This document shows positions 46,562 to 58,263 of a stretch of 64,000 bases of DNA, piece by piece (within the stretch, counting starts at the first letter, position 1; each line of letters opens with the position of its first letter). The DNA is from Bacteroidota bacterium (GTDB taxonomy: Bacteria > Bacteroidota > JABWAT01). The stretch covers positions 317,259-381,258 of the forward strand of contig JABWAT010000001.1 of the NCBI GenBank assembly GCA_013360915.1, in the 5' to 3' direction. The notes beneath the pieces were generated by a model. That model was not told the origin of the DNA. It saw only the letters and a program-made list of their open reading frames with translations, and made no database searches. The position numbers and the translations under genes are program-made.

Positions 46562-47670
46562 AGCGCTTCAACAAACCGCTGAACGTCAGAAAGACTCTGA
46601 TCATGCCCAAAGGAAATCCGCAGGCCGGATCTGGCCTCTTCTGTGGACTGTCCGATTGCAAACAGAACATGTGAAGGCTCAAAACTGCCCGATGAGCAGG
46701 CCGACCCGTTGCTGACCGAGATTCCGGCCGAATCGAGTCCCATAATGACCGCTTCCCCATCGGCCAGCCGTCCGTCCGGAAGGAACAGCGTCAGATTCAG
46801 TATCCAGGGCGAACCCGTCTCCGGTGAATTGACCCGGATGGAAGGAAGACGGTCCTGCAACAGACTTCTCAGATGCTGGTTGACTGATCTGATCTGATCC
46901 GAAACAGGTGCCCGATCTTTCAATGCCTTTTTCAGAGCAAGGGTGAACCCGGCAATGAGAGCTGTTGCCTCGGTACCCGAACGCCGGTTCCGTTCCTGAG
47001 AACCGCCATGGAGCAACGGTTTCAATTCGTTTCCTTGTCTGATGATCATTAATCCGACACCACGGGGTCCTCTGATTTTGTGACCGGAAAATGAGAGAAA
47101 GTCTGCAGACAGATAAGGTGTCATGTCGATCTTACCCAGTCCCTGAACCCCATCAATATGAATTTTTACCTGCTTTTTCTTCAGTTCCTGCAAAAAACCC
47201 GATGGCAGAATCGTTCCCAGTTCATTGTTGACCGCCATCAGTGAAACCAGTGCAGGACCAGTGACGGAATCAATATCCGGAGTTCCCCATTTGTCAACCG
47301 GCAACCAATGAAACCGGGCACCATAGTCACCCAGAAATTCAATGGTTTCGGTGGTGGCATGGTGTTCGGCGAGGGTACTGTAGAAAGTGGCGAGCGGAGT
47401 GGTTAACCAGTAATAGCCCTGAAGAACGGAATTTATTGACTCTGTGGCTGAACCGGTAAAAACAACCTCGGATGGCCTGAGTCCCAGTAATCCGGCAACG
47501 GTTTCTCTCGATTCCTCGATCAGAAAGCGTGCACGACGGCCCTCTTCATGAATACTGGAGGGATTTCCGCCAATCTCCATGGTAACTCTGTCAATTTCTG
47601 CCCGGACCTCCTCATCCATCCAGGTGGTGGACGCATGATCGAGAAACAGACGTCCCGTCTTATTTTGCAT
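46534..47670 (-). CDS. Cysteine desulfurase (NifS/IscS-like)
   Basis: 378 residues from the ATG at 47670, with GGTCCGGAA upstream; extending to 47757 adds a sequence unlike the family. PLP enzyme: AEHHATTE, the cofactor Lys in SFSGHKIRGPRG, RSGTEATA, and the catalytic Cys in GSACSSGSFEPSHVL. It removes sulfur from cysteine for Fe-S clusters or tRNA thiolation. It is the last gene of a sigma/anti-sigma/Spy-like set and overlaps the Spy-like gene by 11 bases, an unusual setting for this enzyme. Confidence 0.93.
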   Translation of the reverse strand: MQNKTGRLFLDHASTTWMDEEVRAEIDRVTMEIGGNPSSIHEEGRRARFLIEESRETVAGLLGLRPSEVVFTGSATESINSVLQGYYWLTTPLATFYSTLAEHHATTETIEFLGDYGARFHWLPVDKWGTPDIDSVTGPALVSLMAVNNELGTILPSGFLQELKKKQVKIHIDGVQGLGKIDMTPYLSADFLSFSGHKIRGPRGVGLMIIRQGNELKPLLHGGSQERNRRSGTEATALIAGFTLALKKALKDRAPVSDQIRSVNQHLRSLLQDRLPSIRVNSPETGSPWILNLTLFLPDGRLADGEAVIMGLDSAGISVSNGSACSSGSFEPSHVLFAIGQSTEEARSGLRISFGHDQSLSDVQRFVEALYTVLSRQF

Positions 47671-48130
47671 CAGTTCCGGACCGCTTGTTTTTTCCCCGCT
47701 CCATTTTCCTGACGAATTCGTGATAGAACTCTGAGTCAAACACCAGCAGCGCTGCATATTGTGATGGAGTCAGTAACTTCTGTGCTGACTTCAGGTAGGT
47801 GGCTCTCGAATCCAGCATTTGCTGCTCCAGGGCAATCAGTTGTGAACTTAAGGTGGTTAGCTCTGATGCAGACATTTCTTTTTCGCGTTTTTTTAACGTC
47901 TGAAAAAGTTGTTTGCGCTCCTCGCGCAGTTTATCCATCTCGTCGAGATGTTTATTCAGCATCGAGAAAAATGGACCAGATTGCTCATCGGTGATATTGA
48001 GCCGGTCGGTCAGTTTCCAGATTCTGAGTTCTCTGATTTTGCCTCGGTATTCAGCTGGAACCATTTCTTCCTGCGCGGCTGCGGGAAAAGCCAGAAGAAA
48101 AACAAACAGCAGGGTCCACAGATGTCTCAT
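47660..48130 (-). CDS. Spy/CpxP-like periplasmic protein
   Basis: 156 residues from the ATG at 48130 (GGAGG six bases upstream). A signal peptide covers about residues 1-19 (AFPAAAQ). The mature part is helical and charged, with an LTPSQYAALLVF motif near the C terminus like the LTxxQ motif of Spy/CpxP proteins. Such proteins act as periplasmic chaperones or stress sensors. It begins one base after the anti-sigma gene. Confidence 0.78.
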   Translation of the reverse strand: MRHLWTLLFVFLLAFPAAAQEEMVPAEYRGKIRELRIWKLTDRLNITDEQSGPFFSMLNKHLDEMDKLREERKQLFQTLKKREKEMSASELTTLSSQLIALEQQMLDSRATYLKSAQKLLTPSQYAALLVFDSEFYHEFVRKMERGKNKRSGTDAK

Positions 48131-48131
48131 T

Positions 48132-48662
48132 TCAACCTCCGGTTTCCTCATTTTTCATTGTTTCATACCATTCATCAATTGTCTCACCGGAAATGTCTGG
48201 TTCCGATACAGGAAATCCGGTTTCTGAAGACCATTCCTCAATCAACTCACCCCAATCCGGAGTGGTTTCAGATTCACTGTCCTGACCATAGCGCAGAAAG
48301 TCGGGAGAATCCGCATTAAAATAACCAAGCAGTTCGTATCCGTTTTCAACCGCTATGGTTTCCTGACGCAAAACCAGGTAGCCTGCCAGCACCGATACAC
48401 CAATAAAAAGGGCTGCGGTTGCTGCCACAGAAACCAAACGGGACATCCAAACACGCCGCCGTGATTTGTTCAGAATCTGGTCGGGTAATTTTGTAAAATA
48501 ATCGGAGTCCTCGTTTTCAACCATTGCGGGAAGGACCGACTGAACTTCCTTTTCAACCGACTCAAACCAGGATTGGCACTTGCGGCATTCCGGTAAATGA
48601 ACCTCCCAGTAATAGTCAGTCAGGTTTTTTTCGTCCGCATAGCGGTCACAGCGGATTTTCAT
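48132..48662 (-). CDS. Membrane anti-sigma factor with a zinc-finger-like N terminus
   Basis: 176 residues. The N-terminal cytoplasmic part has an H-x3-C-x2-C zinc anti-sigma motif (HLPECRKC, near residues 23-30). One transmembrane helix lies at about 82-100 (VAATAALFIGVSVLAGYLV), followed by an acidic periplasmic tail. It should hold the co-encoded sigma factor until a periplasmic signal leads to release. It overlaps the sigma gene by 17 bases. Confidence 0.82.
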   Translation of the reverse strand: MKIRCDRYADEKNLTDYYWEVHLPECRKCQSWFESVEKEVQSVLPAMVENEDSDYFTKLPDQILNKSRRRVWMSRLVSVAATAALFIGVSVLAGYLVLRQETIAVENGYELLGYFNADSPDFLRYGQDSESETTPDWGELIEEWSSETGFPVSEPDISGETIDEWYETMKNEETGG

Positions 48663-49221
48663 GACCCAATGCTCCTTTTATTTTTTGCACCGCATGGAAA
48701 AAGTTGGCTTTGCAGGCTCCCAGAGAACGGCCTGTCTGTCGCGCAATTTCTTCATAAGGCAATTCATCATAATACCTGAGAATAAAAATCAATCGTTGCT
48801 GCGGAGGCAACAATTGAATAACCCGGTCTAATTGTTCTTTCCAGTCCTTTTTCTGCAAATGGTCTTCAGGTGATCCATCCGGATCTCTGAGCAATTGCAG
48901 GTCGTTTTCCTCAGAAGTCGTAAAAGGTTTCTGTCTTCTGAAATGATGCCTGATCTGGTTAATGACAATCCGGTATAACCAGGTAAAAAATCCGGAATCT
49001 CCCCGGAACTGGTCGAGTTTCCGGTAAACCTGAATAAATACCTCTTGTGTGATTTCATCGGCATCCTCATGCGACCCAACCGATCGCCTGACTGTCCAGT
49101 ATACCCTTTTCTGGTACTTTTCTACCAGACGGGTGAAAGCTGGCTCCGATCGCCTGTCCAGAAAGGCTCTGATCAGCGCAGGGTCATCTGCAGGGTTCAG
49201 GTGATCGTCGGCCGGCTCCAT
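48646..49221 (-). CDS. ECF RNA polymerase sigma factor
   Basis: 191 residues with only sigma regions 2 and 4. Region 2 has DADEITQEVFIQVYRKLDQFRG and FFTWLYRIVINQ. Region 4 has LLPPQQRLIFILRYYDELPYEEIA and a DNA-binding helix in TGRSLGACKANFFHAVQKIK. It belongs to the RpoE-like ECF group. It lies 30 bases after gltX, with a hairpin between them. Confidence 0.93.
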   Translation of the reverse strand: MEPADDHLNPADDPALIRAFLDRRSEPAFTRLVEKYQKRVYWTVRRSVGSHEDADEITQEVFIQVYRKLDQFRGDSGFFTWLYRIVINQIRHHFRRQKPFTTSEENDLQLLRDPDGSPEDHLQKKDWKEQLDRVIQLLPPQQRLIFILRYYDELPYEEIARQTGRSLGACKANFFHAVQKIKGALGHENPL

Positions 49222-50767: not shown

Positions 50768-51337
50768 TCAGGGAGAACCCAACGCAGTAAACAGGTCCGT
50801 CGAGGTGATTCCGCTCAGCCCCTGTAACTCACGATACTTCAGGTAATGGGCTGCCTCTATGGGATAAATATCGGCGAGAGCCTTTTTGGCCTCCCGGGTG
50901 GAAAGAACCGAATTGAACATATGCTCGAAGTATGCTTTGGCCGCTTCGTATTCCAGAATCGTTGCAAGAGAAACAACCTGAGATTCACTTGAAACGCCTG
51001 CCGCCCTCGGATCCTTTTGTACAGATTCCCAGTTAACCGTGGCCCCGCCCAGTGATTGAAGGACATTGTTGATGTAAACGGCATGTGTCCGGTGACTATC
51101 CATAAACGCCACAGCTGTTTCAATAACCACTGGTGTGGAAAGAACACCCGATGCGGCGGCAAACTGGTAGGTGGCAACGGCAACACCTTCCATTTCAACC
51201 ACTTTTTTTAATAAGTTGATGTCGCCCGATGGATCTGCAGCGCGTGAATCGGTTTCTAGAATATCACAACCGGCCAGCAGCAACCCGGCTCCCAGCGTAC
51301 CGGTCCCAGATAACTTTAAAAAATTTCTCCGGTCCAT
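50768..51337 (-). CDS. Tat-exported ferritin-like lipoprotein
   Basis: 189 residues. A twin-arginine signal (DRRNFLKLS) leads to a hydrophobic stretch and a lipobox Cys at 24 (LLAGC), so the protein should be exported folded and lipid-anchored. The remainder is a four-helix ferritin-like domain with EMEGVAVATYQ, DSHRTHAVY, LEYEAAKAYFEH and IEAAHYLKYRE, giving Glu/His pairs suited to a di-metal centre. Role: metal or oxidant handling in the periplasm, inferred. Last gene of the cupredoxin/cyclase/barrel set, 13 bases after the barrel gene. Confidence 0.82.
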   Translation of the reverse strand: MDRRNFLKLSGTGTLGAGLLLAGCDILETDSRAADPSGDINLLKKVVEMEGVAVATYQFAAASGVLSTPVVIETAVAFMDSHRTHAVYINNVLQSLGGATVNWESVQKDPRAAGVSSESQVVSLATILEYEAAKAYFEHMFNSVLSTREAKKALADIYPIEAAHYLKYRELQGLSGITSTDLFTALGSP

Positions 51338-51350
51338 TTATCCTCCCTGC

Positions 51351-52538
51351 TCAGAAACTGAATGACATGATTGCAGCGGCCCCATCATCCTTGGGATCGG
51401 TTCCTTCATTGGTTTGTTTAAATCCGACAAGTTTGATCAGCACTCCCTGATCAATGGTGTACCCGACCACAGCTGTCAGCCGGTCCGTGTCGATATCCCA
51501 TTGCTTTTCTTTTCCATCCGGAAAAACAACCGGGTCAAACCAGATCCGATCAAACCGTCCAGCCAGGAACAATCCAGGAATCTGGGGAATGTCGAACTTC
51601 AGGTCTGCGTAAGCCCCATGATTGGTCAGACTGAAGGACCGGAACCCAATCCCGTTTCCATTGGGAACAAATACTCCATCCTTAAACATGGGGGCCGTCC
51701 ATCTGGACCACAGATACTCACCACTCAGTTCGAAATAGGAATAAGCCAGCACTCCATCGACACCAATGGTCAGTTGTTTATTTTCCTCAATATCGGTCAG
51801 TACCGAATTCACAGCGTCTTTGGTCATAAAGGAGCCATAACTTCCCGAAAAACCAAATACCGCCCAAATGGCGGGCCGCAGAGCTAGTCGCCCGGTCACC
51901 GACAGACTTCCATTCGCCTTCAGATTTCCGCCGGTTGAAACGGGCTCATTGGAAACCATCACTTCCGACTCAAAAAAATCTTCATAAACAAAATAGGCTT
52001 TAAAACCAGTCTGATATCCCAGAAAAGTGGCAGGGGTCAGTCCCACATCCTCTGATCCATAACTGCCGGTATCTCCGGTTTTAGGCCAGAACCCACGCAG
52101 ACGGCTCATGTTGATAAAAAACCCGTATGCCAGGGGAGGTGTAAATGAAATCGACTCCGTTGAATGCTGTCGTTTGGGATACAGCCCGAACGGCGTCAGC
52201 AACCGGCCGGCAGACACTCCCCACGTCTCATCTTCCGAATCATAGTTCAAACTCGCAAAGGCCAGTCTCGGCCAGCTTTCTTCGCCATACCAACCCGGTG
52301 CATATAAAAATTTTCCCGAGACACTCCAGCGATCCGTAACCTGTGAACCAAAAAACAGGTGGAGGTTCATGATCGAAAAGTTGGGATACCGGTTTCCAAT
52401 GCCATTGGTGATCGTTTTTGAATCGACCTCACCCATCGAAAAACCTGCATCGAGCAACCCACTCCACTGAACCTGGGAAAACCCGGCCTGGACTTCTATT
52501 AAAAACAGGGCAATGGTCAGTACAAACAATCTTCTCAT
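51351..52538 (-). CDS. Outer-membrane beta-barrel protein (porin-like)
   Basis: 395 residues. A signal peptide covers about residues 1-21 (cleavage near FSQ). The mature chain has many short amphipathic strands and ends with IMSFSF, a terminal Phe typical of barrels. A GRLLTPFGLYPKRQHSTES segment resembles phosphate-selective-porin-like proteins of Bacteroidota, but no substrate can be named. It overlaps the adenylate cyclase gene by four bases. Confidence 0.8.
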   Translation of the reverse strand: MRRLFVLTIALFLIEVQAGFSQVQWSGLLDAGFSMGEVDSKTITNGIGNRYPNFSIMNLHLFFGSQVTDRWSVSGKFLYAPGWYGEESWPRLAFASLNYDSEDETWGVSAGRLLTPFGLYPKRQHSTESISFTPPLAYGFFINMSRLRGFWPKTGDTGSYGSEDVGLTPATFLGYQTGFKAYFVYEDFFESEVMVSNEPVSTGGNLKANGSLSVTGRLALRPAIWAVFGFSGSYGSFMTKDAVNSVLTDIEENKQLTIGVDGVLAYSYFELSGEYLWSRWTAPMFKDGVFVPNGNGIGFRSFSLTNHGAYADLKFDIPQIPGLFLAGRFDRIWFDPVVFPDGKEKQWDIDTDRLTAVVGYTIDQGVLIKLVGFKQTNEGTDPKDDGAAAIMSFSF

Positions 52539-54247
52539 GATAACACCTCATAGATGGGAATCGGCTCACTGAATCCCTTGAATGACATGGGTTCTAACGG
52601 CTTGATGGGGATTTCTTCCCCAAGGCCTCTTTTAACGGAATCTGTTATTAAAATTTGTTGCGCCCGTGCTGCACTGCACAAACGGGCCCCCAGATTGACA
52701 TTGGCACCGATAACGGTATAATCCAGCCGGTTTGCAGAGCCCATGTTTCCAAGAACCACCTGACCGGCATTGATTCCGATTCCGATTCCAATCTGGGTAT
52801 CGGCCTCCCGGTTCAGTTCCCTGGTCGCCTGCATGATTGACCGGGCACAATCTGCAGCCCGTTGCTGATGTCCTTCATTCATGAATATCGCAACCATTTC
52901 GTCGCCCACGAATTTATCCACCGATCCCTGAAATTTTTCGACCAGATCGGCCTGAACGGACAAATACTGATTCAGCATCTGAATGACCACTTCGGGCTCA
53001 GTCTTTTCAGAAAAGGCGGTGAATCCGCGTATATCGCTGAACAGAACGGTTACATCCATCCGGCGGCCTGCAAAATCGGCATCGGTCCCCGCCACCTTAC
53101 CAATCATTTCTTTGGTGTGGCTGCCCACATACCGCAGCAGGTGAAAGCGTTCCTTGAGTCCACGGGTCATATCATTAAAGGCCGAGGTCAGTGTGCCCAA
53201 TTCATCTTTCGAGGTTACAGGAAGGCTGATGTCATAATTTCCCTGCCTTACTTTTTCAACGCCAACCGACAAGGCTGTGATTGGTCGTGTGATGGTGGTT
53301 CCAACCAGGACCGACAGGATGATGGCCAGAAACAAACCAAATGCCCCGGTCAGATAAATCAGCCGTTCGATCGCGGTTATTATGGCCAGTTGCTGACTTT
53401 CTGGAGCAGAGAGAATATAGTAGGCATTTTCACCCTTCCCCAATGGGGCCATAACACTGAAGTATCGGTTATGACTCAGCGTGACATCAAAAACAGGCGA
53501 GCTTGCCATCTGTGACCGGACCACATCAAACCAATCGGGATGATTCTGTAAAATATCCTCGAGCTGAAACTGGTCCGACCGGGACAGTGTCGATGCAAAA
53601 ATGACGGTATCCTGCAAAAAGGTAACATCAAACCCCGACAGATATTTCAGTGTATCTGCCTCCTTTTGTCCAAGAATGGTCCCAAGGGTCAGTGTTCCCA
53701 GAACCGAAGTCGCCGATGGAACAAATGATGGAACCGACACAACCTGATACACATATGGCTCAATCGTCCACAAATCGATAAAGTCAGGATTCAGAACGGG
53801 ATCAATGCCCTCAATGGACCTGCGGATGGTCTCCCTCCAGGTCAGGGTGTCTCCCCATGCTTCCGGATTGGTAAGACTTGCAACCTGAACGCCCTCCCGG
53901 TCTGTAACCACAAACAGATCGGTTTTGATAGGGCTGGCCATGTCACTGATTCCGATCAGTACCGTTTCGTGAATCACCTCAGGCTTTGATTCCGGTTGCC
54001 CGATCAGCGATAGGGTCTCCTTCAGTAATGGCTGGTCCGATAAAATCAGAGACGTTTCCACCAGCCGTTCATAATTCTGCCGCTGAATGACCTCGAAGGT
54101 GGCCTGGGACTTTTTGAAATCCTTCCGGACTTTGTCGGCAATCTGATCACCCACCGACCGGGTGATAATCAGCAATACCCCCAGGAGAATAATAAAGACA
54201 AGAGAACTGAAAAGCAGGATAATCCTGACTTGAATTTTGTTCAGCAT
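52535..54247 (-). CDS. Membrane class III adenylate cyclase with periplasmic sensor and HAMP
   Basis: 570 residues. TM1 at about 8-28, a large periplasmic domain of about 265 residues (Cache-like in size and pattern), TM2 at about 295-318, HAMP at about 318-370, and a cyclase domain from about 395. Catalytic features are present: metal Asp in LFSDIRGFT and VGDEMVAIF, the adenine-selecting Lys in VDKFVGD, and the DYTVIGANVNLGARL segment. It should make cAMP in response to a periplasmic signal. Two bases separate it from the cupredoxin gene and it overlaps the barrel gene. Confidence 0.9.
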   Translation of the reverse strand: MLNKIQVRIILLFSSLVFIILLGVLLIITRSVGDQIADKVRKDFKKSQATFEVIQRQNYERLVETSLILSDQPLLKETLSLIGQPESKPEVIHETVLIGISDMASPIKTDLFVVTDREGVQVASLTNPEAWGDTLTWRETIRRSIEGIDPVLNPDFIDLWTIEPYVYQVVSVPSFVPSATSVLGTLTLGTILGQKEADTLKYLSGFDVTFLQDTVIFASTLSRSDQFQLEDILQNHPDWFDVVRSQMASSPVFDVTLSHNRYFSVMAPLGKGENAYYILSAPESQQLAIITAIERLIYLTGAFGLFLAIILSVLVGTTITRPITALSVGVEKVRQGNYDISLPVTSKDELGTLTSAFNDMTRGLKERFHLLRYVGSHTKEMIGKVAGTDADFAGRRMDVTVLFSDIRGFTAFSEKTEPEVVIQMLNQYLSVQADLVEKFQGSVDKFVGDEMVAIFMNEGHQQRAADCARSIMQATRELNREADTQIGIGIGINAGQVVLGNMGSANRLDYTVIGANVNLGARLCSAARAQQILITDSVKRGLGEEIPIKPLEPMSFKGFSEPIPIYEVLS

Positions 54248-54249
54248 AA

Positions 54250-54936
54250 TTATCCGATCGTCAGCTTAAGTTGGCGGTCACTTCCTGCTTCCACTCTGAT
54301 TTCGATGGGCTCCCCCTTGAAATCAGGATGAAATATATCCACCCGATAGGTGCCAGGCTGCAATCCGTCAAAGCGGAAGGTTCCCTGTGGTGATACACGC
54401 TGAAAAAAAGGCGTATCCAGCACCAGGATGTATGCAGACATGTTGGTGTGAATGTTACAGAAAACCTGAACCACACCAGGTCGTTCAAACGCCTGATAGA
54501 TGGTTTCACCCGTCAGACGCTTGCCAATATTGAAACTTTTAACCGGAGACTTACTGAATACATTGTGGTAAATCCGGTCCATGTTTACGATCGAAACGGT
54601 GGACCCAACGGTAACAGGCGTGACCCTTGGATGAAAAGTGACATTCTTCTGATTCAGTTCAGGTGAATTCGAAAGAGGTTCCGGTTTGATGGGCTGATCA
54701 ATCCGCGTCAGATAGACGATGGCATCTTCAAGCGGATTCGAATTTTCAGCTTTGGAGGGGGTCTTTTTAGCCTGGTAACGGCTTCTGTACAAAGCCCCCC
54801 GCTCGCGGACCCCGAGGGCGGACTGTGAGGATTGAATCTGTACCGTTCCCTGAATGGTAACAGAAGAAGTCGTCTGTCCCTCTGACCGGGACAGACCGGT
54901 AAGTAACAGACCAGAAAGTAGTAAAAACCTGATCAT
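54250..54936 (-). CDS. Periplasmic cupredoxin with a C-terminal CarboxypepD-like domain
   Basis: 228 residues. A signal peptide covers about 1-20. A cupredoxin domain (about 65-172) has a complete type 1 copper set, H124, C160, H163 and M166 (the C-x2-H-x2-M spacing in FCNIHTNM). A carboxypeptidase-regulatory-like beta domain follows (GTFRFDGLQPGTYRVDIFHPDFKG, 185-208). Similar proteins are often labelled methylamine utilisation protein, but no mau genes are here. It is expected to bind copper or exchange electrons in the periplasm, possibly as the ligand of the adjacent cyclase. Confidence 0.87.
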   Translation of the reverse strand: MIRFLLLSGLLLTGLSRSEGQTTSSVTIQGTVQIQSSQSALGVRERGALYRSRYQAKKTPSKAENSNPLEDAIVYLTRIDQPIKPEPLSNSPELNQKNVTFHPRVTPVTVGSTVSIVNMDRIYHNVFSKSPVKSFNIGKRLTGETIYQAFERPGVVQVFCNIHTNMSAYILVLDTPFFQRVSPQGTFRFDGLQPGTYRVDIFHPDFKGEPIEIRVEAGSDRQLKLTIG

Positions 54937-54997: not shown

Positions 54998-56011
54998 TCA
55001 GAGAATAACGAGCATCTCCCGTGTGGCCTGCGTCAAGATAGTAAACTGTTCTTCCAGACGTACTTTCTCGACTTGTTTACGACGGATTCGTTGATTCAGA
55101 TCATCTGCCAGACCCTGATAGTAGGCATCCTGATCGGGTTTATATGATTTGACACGGATCATCAACTGGTGAGAATCACTTTCCAGGATGGCTTTCAGTC
55201 TGGATTGAATTGAATCGGTCAGGACTCGCAGTTTCTTCTCTTCCATCCGGTAACGATCAATTTTACCAGCCAGGGATTCCCCAATCTGCTCCACTTCGAT
55301 ATACAGATGGGCCTTGGCTTCAATTTTCCTGAGCACATCCAGATCCGATTGATGGTACGCATCATTGATTGCCTTCATCACTTCATCAAAGTAAGCCAGT
55401 TCAGACTCATTTCTGGCCTTATCCGGATGGTAGATCTTGGCAAGATCCCGGTAAAGGGTTCTAAGCTCTGATTTTTGTTCTTCAGTCAATTCCCGGCGGC
55501 TTTGCTTCATAGCTCTCAGCGTCCGCTCATCTTCATCCAGCTGATGCGCATCGGCTTCCAGCTGCCGCGTCAGGTCGGTCAGTTCATCAAGAATCGATTG
55601 CTCGTCCACCGGTTTACCCGCATGAAACCGTTCAATTTTCATCCGGACCATTCTGATTTCATAATCCAGTTTGTCTAATTGAAGGTATAACCGCCCGACC
55701 CGGAAATTGTAGTCGGTCTGGAACAAACCCAGCTCGGTTTCCAGATCATCCAGTTCCAGAAAACGATCGCCCAACTGGTTTCTCAGATCAGTCACCAGGC
55801 CTTTCAACCGTTCCAACTCAATTTCGTCCGCCGTTCTGACACGGGTGATTTTCCGGCCGGCATATTTCCGCAGACATTCCGTCCTGATCTCACTCAGAAC
55901 TTCAAACGCTTTTTCAAAAGCCTCTGAAGATTGCTTGAAGTCATGGCGGTCCGAAGCCTGCACCGCCTGGTTGTAATAGGCGGTAAAGATTTCATAAAGA
56001 GCCGTGTTCAT
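54998..56011 (-). CDS. Coiled-coil protein with an internal J domain
   Basis: 337 residues, no signal peptide. A TPR-like N terminus (1-50) is followed by a long coiled coil (60-170), a J domain (about 174-230) with the HPD motif at 195-197 and the usual YRDLAKIYHPDKA and EVMKAINDAYH helices, then a second coiled coil (235-330). The J domain implies stimulation of a DnaK/Hsp70 ATPase. No Gly/Phe or zinc region is present, so it is a class C J protein. It overlaps the WD40 gene by four bases. Confidence 0.83.
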   Translation of the reverse strand: MNTALYEIFTAYYNQAVQASDRHDFKQSSEAFEKAFEVLSEIRTECLRKYAGRKITRVRTADEIELERLKGLVTDLRNQLGDRFLELDDLETELGLFQTDYNFRVGRLYLQLDKLDYEIRMVRMKIERFHAGKPVDEQSILDELTDLTRQLEADAHQLDEDERTLRAMKQSRRELTEEQKSELRTLYRDLAKIYHPDKARNESELAYFDEVMKAINDAYHQSDLDVLRKIEAKAHLYIEVEQIGESLAGKIDRYRMEEKKLRVLTDSIQSRLKAILESDSHQLMIRVKSYKPDQDAYYQGLADDLNQRIRRKQVEKVRLEEQFTILTQATREMLVIL

Positions 56012-58263
56012 CGCAATCCCCGCAATTCTTCGTCAATATTCCAGATTCTCATTTCTCCACCGTACCCATTCATCAGGTACCGTCCGTTCGGGGAAACCCT
56101 CAGATTGGTTCCTCCTTTGATGGTTGCAATCATCGACCGCTCCTGCAGAGACCAGATCCGGGTCATGTTATCCAATCCCCCGCTCATCACCATGGGTTTG
56201 TCGGGATGAAAAACAACCGCAGTGATATTCTGCTGATGCGAACCTATGGTCCCTAGATCATTTCCGGTGATCGTGGACCATAGTTGCAAATCCTGACGGA
56301 TTCCCGTGGCCAAAACCAAACCATCTGGTGAAATGGCCATGGCGGTGACTTTTCGCTTCGGATCATCGAGCATCCAGAGCAGTGAACCGGATCCGCGATC
56401 CCAGACCGCCAACTGACCAGCTTCCGTACGGGCATAAACGAAATGGTTGTTTTCAGAAACCCTGATTTCGATGGCCATCGACGTCAGTCCGCGGTAGTCT
56501 GTGATCACCTTTCCGTTGGTCAGTCCGTAAAGTTTAACCACGTAATCCAGGCCACAGGCCAATAAATAGGAACCATCCGGACTCAGAATCGCCGACTTGA
56601 CGATCTTTTGATTGCCTTCAAAGGATTGGATAATCTCATTGGTCCGGCAATCGTAAATGGTCAGTGATTGTTCACCCCTGATCAGAATCAGTGGCTCTAT
56701 ACCAAAAAAGGCCACTTGTCTGATCCGGTCTTCAGGAATTTCGATGTCATGCAGAAAACTGACCGAATCGATATCCCAGATCTGAACCGTTTTTTCATCC
56801 GAGGCGTAGGCAAAATGCTTTCCATCCGGTGAAAACGACAGGGTCCTCGGCCAGACATAGCCGGTATCAAAAGCCGATTCAACAGTACCGGTTGCCAGGT
56901 TCCAGATTTTGATTTTATTATCCGTTCCACCAACAGCCACTCGTCGGTCGTCCGGATGAAATTCACTGGCTTTGAGGTACCCTTCCGGCATCAGGAAAAT
57001 GGCATAACAGGATCCGGTGGTATAATCAAAGATTTTAATGGAATTATCCCACCCTCTGCAGGCAACATAGGGTTTACCCTGACTGAACGGATTGTTGAAA
57101 ATCCAGTCATCCGTACTGTGAAAATCAGAAAGGACATGTCCTTCAGTCAGATCCCAGATGGTGACCCGATGGTCCTTGCTTGAAGAAAGGGCAAACCGTC
57201 CGTCTCCCGAAAAAACGATTCCCATCATCTTATCACTGGAGCCCCCATCAATGACGGTCAGCTCATGCTCAACATCGATAACACGTGCGAACTCACCGTT
57301 CCGGGTGGTGGCCAGCAACCGTCCGGTGGTCTGCTGATATACCAATGAATCAATCCAGGAATTGTCATATTCAAACCGGGAAACCCAGGCGCCTGTTTTC
57401 ATATCGCCGGTAATGATGGTCTTATACTCACTTCCGAGGGCAAAACGGTTCCCATCGGGAGACAGTGCCAGAGATCGCACATATTCTCTTGGCAGTTGCA
57501 CGGTCCAGACGGGTGTCCCACTCTGAATCGACCATAAAATCAGATTCTGATCAGAACCATAAGTCAGCACTTCTTCCCGGCCGGGTACCGGATGAAGGGA
57601 AAGAACCGATCCGTCGTGGGCATGAAAAACCTGCAGACACTCCCCTGTTACCGGATTCCAGGTCTTCACGGTTCCCGCAGAGGAGCCAGTAAACAAAACT
57701 CCGCCATCCGCTGACATTTTCATTACGGTTACTTCTTCTTCATAACCGCCGATCAGAAGTGTATCGCCAGACTGTATCCCCAGTACTTTAATGCGATTAC
57801 TCGAAAGAATCACCATCGAGTCTCCATCCGGACTGAACCCAATATCGTTCAGAAGACTTTCCCCGATACGAAGCCCCTCTCTGACATAGATTTCCTTGGT
57901 AACCACCTCGCTCAGAAGGTCGCCCTTCCTGGCCTGCATGGTTACGGTTTTCCGACCGCCGGAATAAAAGCGATGATAGACAATGGGTTCTGAGAGGAAG
58001 TCGGTTTGCCAGTCTGCGGCCTGATCAAAATTATACCGGACCGATACCGGCTCCCCTTCCTGGTTACTGTCGAAAAAATGCCGGGCATTGAATGCAAATT
58101 CCGTATTGATATAGCCAGACTCGGGGAATGGAAAGAAATTAAGGTTTCTGAAATGAATCAGGGTCTGAGAATGCTCAAGACCAAGCTTCAGCGATCGCCT
58201 TTCTGAATGCAGGTCAAACCGGCCGGGGAGCCGGGTTGAAGCAGAGGTTATTTCACGGGACAT
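56008..58263 (-). CDS. WD40-repeat protein with an N-terminal PKD-like domain
   Basis: 751 residues, no signal peptide or transmembrane helix. Residues about 75-130 resemble a PKD/Ig-like fold (VRYNFDQAADW...YHRFYSGGRKTVTMQA). From about 140 to the end run roughly 14 WD40 repeats (units such as GFSPDGDSMVILSSNRIKV, KTWNPVTGECLQVF and RIWSLQERSMIATI), enough for two seven-bladed propellers. It is a scaffold for protein complexes. Translationally coupled to the J-domain protein, so the two probably work together. Confidence 0.85.
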   Translation of the reverse strand: MSREITSASTRLPGRFDLHSERRSLKLGLEHSQTLIHFRNLNFFPFPESGYINTEFAFNARHFFDSNQEGEPVSVRYNFDQAADWQTDFLSEPIVYHRFYSGGRKTVTMQARKGDLLSEVVTKEIYVREGLRIGESLLNDIGFSPDGDSMVILSSNRIKVLGIQSGDTLLIGGYEEEVTVMKMSADGGVLFTGSSAGTVKTWNPVTGECLQVFHAHDGSVLSLHPVPGREEVLTYGSDQNLILWSIQSGTPVWTVQLPREYVRSLALSPDGNRFALGSEYKTIITGDMKTGAWVSRFEYDNSWIDSLVYQQTTGRLLATTRNGEFARVIDVEHELTVIDGGSSDKMMGIVFSGDGRFALSSSKDHRVTIWDLTEGHVLSDFHSTDDWIFNNPFSQGKPYVACRGWDNSIKIFDYTTGSCYAIFLMPEGYLKASEFHPDDRRVAVGGTDNKIKIWNLATGTVESAFDTGYVWPRTLSFSPDGKHFAYASDEKTVQIWDIDSVSFLHDIEIPEDRIRQVAFFGIEPLILIRGEQSLTIYDCRTNEIIQSFEGNQKIVKSAILSPDGSYLLACGLDYVVKLYGLTNGKVITDYRGLTSMAIEIRVSENNHFVYARTEAGQLAVWDRGSGSLLWMLDDPKRKVTAMAISPDGLVLATGIRQDLQLWSTITGNDLGTIGSHQQNITAVVFHPDKPMVMSGGLDNMTRIWSLQERSMIATIKGGTNLRVSPNGRYLMNGYGGEMRIWNIDEELRGLR

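Follow-up and report, generated by a model that had tools for sequence, protein, structure and literature searches.

Three genes form a core in a Bacteroidota genome: they encode a secreted cupredoxin, an adenylate cyclase of class IIIb with dCache and HAMP domains, and a porin of 16 strands. On balance, we judge that the cupredoxin acts as the regulatory partner of the dCache domain in one pathway, so that the three products would form a three-part envelope signaling unit. The genes lie in a stretch of 64,000 nucleotides (the window), where four open reading frames, all on the minus strand, span positions 50768 to 54936. The first encodes a secreted cupredoxin of 228 aa (54250..54936) with a Sec signal peptide and matches to Copper-bind (E = 0.0065) and CarboxypepD_reg (3.3e-6). 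It is followed by a membrane adenylate cyclase of 570 aa (52535..54247), which contains a transmembrane segment, a periplasmic dCache domain, a second transmembrane segment, a HAMP domain, and a class IIIb catalytic domain; by an outer-membrane porin of 395 aa (51351..52538) with 16 strands; and by an accessory gene for a Tat-exported ferritin-like lipoprotein of 189 aa (50768..51337). A preliminary description had presented all four as one unit. The cupredoxin, cyclase, and barrel proved to be its core, with the barrel present at 40 of 40 cyclase loci, and the lipoprotein is optional (15 of 40). The spacings in that description hold for cupredoxin and cyclase (2 bases) and for cyclase and barrel (a 4-base overlap), and the gap between barrel and lipoprotein is corrected from 12 to 13 bases. 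The host genome measures 3.65 Mb, and its nearest named relatives are metagenome-assembled genomes labeled "Bacteroidetes bacterium."

The catalytic domain of the cyclase (residues 397 to 558; 52574..53059, minus strand; Guanylate_cyc, 1.7e-23) has an intact active site. D405 and D449 (metal), K445 and T511 (adenine), and N518 and R522 (transition state) are all invariant in 40 orthologues. We take this set of an Asp pair, Lys/Thr, and Asn/Arg to be the class IIIb adenylate cyclase pattern. From these residues, the predicted substrate is ATP and not GTP, and the predicted product is cAMP. Among characterized adenylate cyclases, the domain is closest to CyaB and CyaC by both sequence and fold; identity in the structural match is 34% for Pseudomonas CyaB and 32 to 33% for Spirulina CyaC, and the full catalytic residue set is common to all three. 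Unlike CyaB and CyaC, the window cyclase combines a periplasmic dCache input with linkage to a cupredoxin and a porin.

Upstream of the catalytic domain, a HAMP domain (residues 315 to 365; 53153..53305, minus strand; Pfam PF00672, 1.2e-11) follows a periplasmic region of about 266 residues between two membrane helices, in line with the 265 residues given earlier. This region has no Pfam match of its own, and 19 of the 40 orthologues match dCache_3 (PF14827). In the structural model of the cyclase (mean pLDDT, 83.6), the periplasmic part consists of a long helix and two alpha/beta lobes. Both the orthologue matches and the model are consistent with a double-Cache sensor of the dCache_3 type at approximately residues 31 to 296 (53360..54157, minus strand). 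Domains of the dCache type usually bind small molecules. In a conservation scan of the 40 sequences, no periplasmic column held His, Cys, or Met in at least 25% of them. Receptors that sense copper directly, such as CusS, differ in having conserved periplasmic His, Met, or Cys residues that bind the metal. Because the window sensor has no such conserved residues, it is unlikely to bind copper alone in the manner of CusS.

The cupredoxin presents a complete copper site. Its core (54421..54654, minus strand) contains the type 1 ligands H124, C160, H163, and M166 in an amicyanin-like CxxHxxM spacing, as had been noted from the window. All four ligands are invariant in an alignment of 26 sequences, and the H...CxxHxxM motif occurs in 114 of 114 loci. 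The ligand set is that of a type 1 (blue copper) cupredoxin, and copper binding is predicted from these residues. The core is flanked by a CarboxypepD_reg or transthyretin-like domain. CarboxypepD_reg was matched by all 26 aligned relatives, Copper-bind by 12, and Cupredoxin_1 by 10. Amicyanin and other type 1 cupredoxins have the same His...Cys-x2-His-x2-Met arrangement. However, the match to the amicyanin model was weak (E = 0.017; 15.5 bits versus an NCBIfam cutoff of 110.2 bits), and, unlike amicyanin, the window cupredoxin is embedded in a CarboxypepD_reg-like domain. No methylamine dehydrogenase genes were recognized near the cupredoxin in the conserved neighborhoods. We therefore rejected a link to the Mau system and amicyanin that NCBI product names had hinted at.

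Cupredoxins of the wider family occur in other settings. One separate subfamily (eight loci, L061 to L067 and L069) lies directly upstream of cytochrome c oxidase genes and forms its own fully supported clade in the cupredoxin tree; in several of these loci, the cupredoxin is preceded by a large multiheme or cytochrome c protein. Another subfamily (L043, L048, L050, and L059) adjoins an outer-membrane protein with an N-terminal heme motif (e.g., IPAFARKYKTACATCH). At two of its loci (L050 and L059), a dCache_1 histidine kinase follows the CxxCH barrel, a parallel cupredoxin-barrel-sensor arrangement in which barrel and sensor are unrelated to those of the window. We considered whether these dCache_1 kinases carry the same sensor and rejected the idea: they did not match a profile built on the sensor alone, and neither did the control. 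Apparent long cupredoxin fusions in GC-rich loci of Acidobacteriota were likewise rejected as read-through open frames: the cupredoxin is not in the frame of the porin, which ends in a stop. A locus labeled Bifidobacterium breve (L119; contig CALQBJ020000021.1) grouped firmly with Acidobacteriota in the cupredoxin tree, and the record is probably misnamed or contaminated.

The third core protein was identified as a porin by fold. Its AlphaFold2 model has 16 strands and a mean pLDDT of 90, which bears out the earlier reading of an outer-membrane barrel, and the best fold matches in the PDB include OprP (2.6e-12) and OprO (4.7e-11). The window porin shares the 16-stranded barrel of these two proteins, with only 14 to 16% identity in the structural match. 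By sequence, it matched no Pfam or NCBIfam family, and a search of PDB sequences with the porin profile returned nothing, so its identity comes from the fold search. Porin_O_P (PF07396) was matched by 1 of 37 members of the porin family, weakly (E = 0.006), and the window porin falls outside it. Two other outer-membrane proteins found near related cupredoxins, DUF3034 and the CxxCH barrel, were considered as relatives of the porin and rejected as not detectably related.

We searched 297 genomes of the phylum separately with the cupredoxin, the sensor domain alone, and the porin alone and overlaid the matches. The cupredoxin was matched in 88 genomes, the sensor 41 times in 36 genomes, and the porin 40 times in 34 genomes. 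A cupredoxin lay within 300 bp of the sensor in 38 of the 41 sensor matches (gaps of 6 to 108 bp), and a porin lay within 2.5 kb in 39 of the 41. Conversely, 39 of the 40 porin matches had a sensor nearby. Among the three sensors without an adjacent cupredoxin, one genome (G280) carries the cupredoxin on another contig, a second (G199) carries both a cupredoxin and a variant porin on the contig of the sensor but at a greater distance, and the third (G255) is a clear exception. A second sample consisted of 114 loci picked on cupredoxin similarity alone, including a scan of named genomes. Here, both sensor and porin were found at all 40 cyclase-type loci, which come from Bacteroidota, Balneolota, Chlorobiota, Ignavibacteriota, Calditrichota, and Gemmatimonadota. 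Conservation of gene order in relatives, on whose failure the original proposal would have fallen, was thus strong, and the unit recurs across several phyla at 30 to 40% protein identity. The record of one Balneola strain, EhC07 (L137), is not marked as a metagenome assembly and carries the unit, which should therefore be testable in culture.

Where a lineage rearranges slowly, descent alone can keep neighboring genes together, and the gene order could in principle be a product of common ancestry or of chance, the genes being functionally unconnected. We give this explanation almost no credence, and the conservation pattern already refutes it. The genes upstream of the unit differ completely between families while the core trio stays: DnaJ-like and WD40 genes in the family of the window, DeoC, aldehyde dehydrogenases, and a SPOR lipoprotein in Balneolaceae, and an MscS channel beside the second paralogue. 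The order within the trio also varies. In most lineages, the porin gene is found 3' of the cyclase gene; in five loci, it instead precedes the cupredoxin gene on the 5' side. The association thus persists through rearrangement, and it does so across several phyla and with more than one output domain.

Upstream of the window unit, across a 61-base gap, a WD40 propeller protein (751 aa) and a DnaJ-like coiled-coil protein occupy positions 54998 to 58263. The DnaJ-like gene (54998..56011, minus strand; DnaJ, E = 1.7e-5) is directly upstream of the cupredoxin and possibly on the same transcript as the unit. The pair is kept upstream in the sampled family members (L031 to L033), with the DnaJ-like gene in the same place in all three, and this gene is kept only in the family of the window. 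In the Balneolaceae locus L035, a DeoC aldolase gene, two aldehyde dehydrogenase genes, and a gene for a SPOR-domain lipoprotein lie immediately upstream on the same strand. Upstream genes of matching size and order were seen at eight further loci (L037, L041, L047, L102, L109, L124, L137, and L140), which may point to a connection with nucleoside or aldehyde catabolism in Balneolaceae.

The pairing of cupredoxin and sensor is not confined to cyclases. At one locus (L052), the sensor stands beside a homologous cupredoxin and is fused to a HisKA_2 kinase; at another (L053), also beside a homologous cupredoxin, it is fused to a PAS-HisKA-receiver hybrid kinase. Loci of Acidobacteriota have kinases followed by a receiver protein, which in one case (L123) is a sigma-54 response regulator. 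On plasmids of Caballeronia, Comamonas, and Novosphingobium, the output is GGDEF-EAL, and the cupredoxin is named "methylamine utilization protein" or carboxypeptidase regulatory-like protein. The sensor-only profile matched the sensors of L052, L053, Caballeronia, Comamonas, and Novosphingobium with probabilities of 100, 99.7, 97.3, 93.1, and 69.3, respectively, the last of which is a weak match. In the cupredoxin tree, the cyclase loci formed one group with the L052 kinase locus nested inside it. This position indicates that the output changed while cupredoxin, sensor, and porin were kept. As a correction to the preliminary description, the system is not tied to cAMP, since the same pairing also occurs with histidine kinases and with GGDEF-EAL, and the cupredoxin-sensor pairing appears to be more stable than the choice of messenger.

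Among the closest known systems is a Pseudomonadota cluster of DUF3034, truncated hemoglobin, "methylamine utilization protein," and EAL genes, which is the arrangement on the Caballeronia and Novosphingobium plasmids. The cluster has a homologous cupredoxin with the same ligands and, as in the window, a homologous dCache sensor immediately downstream of it. Unlike the window unit, it has GGDEF-EAL as its output, includes an additional gene for truncated hemoglobin, and encodes an outer-membrane protein not detectably related to the porin. DUF3034 and truncated hemoglobin adjoin the pair in two of the three plasmid loci from Caballeronia, Comamonas, and Novosphingobium. In the Pseudomonadota plasmid loci L071 and L073, genes for DUF3034, truncated hemoglobin, cupredoxin, and a dCache_3-HAMP-GGDEF-EAL protein are clustered, and the heme protein may add oxygen or nitric oxide to the signal. 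We found no functional study of the DUF3034 cluster in open-access text, which mentions DUF3034 only in passing, a single time in each of two papers on other subjects.

Pairwise evolutionary distances within the unit were compared across 29 nonredundant cyclase loci and in 300 random 70% subsets. Sensor distances correlated strongly with those of the cupredoxin (ρ = 0.87; partial, 0.61) and of the porin (ρ = 0.81) and less with those of the catalytic domain in the same protein (ρ = 0.52; partial, −0.07). The cupredoxin-sensor correlation exceeded the sensor-catalytic correlation in all 300 subsets, and it did so within the main clade alone (0.81 versus 0.62). The cupredoxin-sensor pair had the strongest covariation of all pairs in the full set; in the main clade, the porin was as close to cupredoxin and sensor as those two were to each other. 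This pattern fits a three-way contact in the envelope, but shared inheritance and unequal rates between domains may also lie behind it.

An alternative is that the porin and the dCache domain are a solute-sensing pair, for example, for an anion as with OprP and OprO, and that the cupredoxin is a copper-storage or electron-transfer protein coexpressed because the same conditions require it. The ligand preference of dCache domains, the OprP/OprO-like fold, and a porin linked as tightly as the cupredoxin all favor this explanation. We nevertheless regard it as unlikely. The cupredoxin stays by the sensor in Pseudomonadota, where DUF3034 replaces the porin, and in some cupredoxin-sensor loci of Acidobacteriota at which no porin was detected. 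The lead of the cupredoxin-sensor pair in the full-set distances also counts against it, even though the porin equals that pair inside the main clade. The cupredoxin lies next to the sensor almost without exception, stays with it under a different output domain, and covaries with it in distance, all of which lends indirect support to the earlier proposal that the cupredoxin is the partner of the cyclase's sensor.

The fourth gene of the window encodes, as described before, a Tat-exported ferritin-like lipoprotein, with an RRNFLK Tat motif, an LAGC lipobox, and a Ferritin_2 domain (2.4e-9; 37.9 bits against a cutoff of 24.7) that places it in that family. E50, H82, H85, E129, E161, and H164, as well as the lipobox cysteine C24, are invariant in 15 lipoprotein relatives, and the Glu and His residues are likely di-metal ligands. 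The gene was absent from every locus of other types among the 114 loci. A short distance away in the window (47660 to 49221) lies a row of genes for an ECF-type sigma factor, a membrane protein encoded by an overlapping gene and carrying Cys in its short N terminus (possibly an anti-sigma factor), and an LTXXQ (Spy/CpxP-like) periplasmic protein; the row is possibly an envelope-stress unit.

Occurrence of the lipoprotein gene at 15 of 40 cyclase loci, and of one cupredoxin subfamily with cytochrome c oxidase genes, could also be explained if the genes were a copper or oxidative-stress response cluster, in which an unrelated dCache ligand raises cAMP, metal proteins of the periplasm are under cAMP control, and there is no contact among the four products. 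This seems to us improbable. No copper exporter, oxidase, or metal-resistance gene was recognized in the conserved cyclase-type neighborhoods, most loci lack the ferritin-like gene, and the genes stay linked even where the output is a different one, which would alter the regulon.

The sensor itself lacks conserved His, Cys, and Met residues, and the cupredoxin in the same compartment has a full copper site everywhere; together, these make the cupredoxin as regulatory partner of the dCache domain the most economical model. Under this model, the copper or redox state of the cupredoxin, or a ligand that enters the periplasm through the coencoded porin, would alter the contact between cupredoxin and dCache domain. 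From there, the signal would travel through the HAMP domain to the class IIIb cyclase, and cAMP would then act on CRP-type regulators, with the ferritin-like lipoprotein as an optional accessory that may handle periplasmic metal or oxidant. Given a regulatory partnership, we consider the chances about evenly balanced that copper or redox is the actual signal, and the cupredoxin could either raise or lower cyclase activity. Cupredoxins of the wider family also stand beside cytochrome c oxidase or CxxCH barrels at loci that have no window-type sensor, which makes a role in electron transfer possible. For the downstream steps, the genome encodes a CRP protein with a DNA-binding domain and other cNMP-binding proteins. 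Because the genome has another five class III cyclases, cAMP is not a messenger of this unit alone, and effects at the level of the cAMP pool may be shared. Just past the end of the window, about 9 kb upstream of the unit and on the same strand, lies a gene for a cNMP-binding-domain protein in which no DNA-binding domain was recognized (G000:C1:381330-381593); it is a possible cAMP receiver.

In mode of action, the nearest system is YfiBNR (AwsXRO/TpbB) of Pseudomonas, which likewise spans the envelope in three parts: a protein in the outer membrane, a soluble regulator in the periplasm, and, in the inner membrane, a nucleotide cyclase with a periplasmic domain (PAS-type in YfiBNR) and a HAMP domain. 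In that system, YfiR acts from the periplasm on the PAS domain of a diguanylate cyclase in the inner membrane and thereby represses the enzyme; YfiR is sequestered by an outer-membrane lipoprotein and has been proposed to sense redox through cysteines, and the periplasmic module drives diverse outputs in other species (PMC3375315). The parts themselves differ. YfiN has a single PAS domain where the window cyclase has a dCache domain, and its output is c-di-GMP where the window unit has a class III cyclase. In contrast to the cupredoxin, YfiR, a repressor that contains cysteines, is not known to be a copper protein, and in place of a porin the Pseudomonas system has YfiB, an OmpA/Pal-like lipoprotein. 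Pfam and NCBIfam scans found no YfiBNR protein family, by annotation, in the window unit. Our best reading is that the unit works like YfiBNR yet is unrelated to it.

The preliminary description knew of no cAMP system of this makeup, and we found none in open-access text, nor any description there of a cupredoxin-linked cyclase or kinase, although absence from that literature is not proof. To our knowledge, blue copper proteins are recognized as electron carriers and not as signaling subunits. The unit looks like an undescribed, interchangeable system that reports outside conditions to the cell interior. Tentatively, and with somewhat more doubt than confidence, we would extend this to a widespread module with a secreted type 1 copper protein as the subunit that does the sensing for a dCache receptor, the porin as its outer-membrane part, and an output that can be exchanged among cAMP, c-di-GMP, and a phosphorelay. 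If the cupredoxin is a coreceptor, bacteria would have a means of sensing copper or redox state in the periplasm that does not belong to the CusS/CopS type. The unit would then also join YfiBNR, to which it is unrelated, as the second example of a relay from outer membrane through periplasm to inner membrane with exchangeable outputs. The unit probably provides a context for many proteins now labeled "methylamine utilization protein," for DUF3034, and for a porin family that has no Pfam model.
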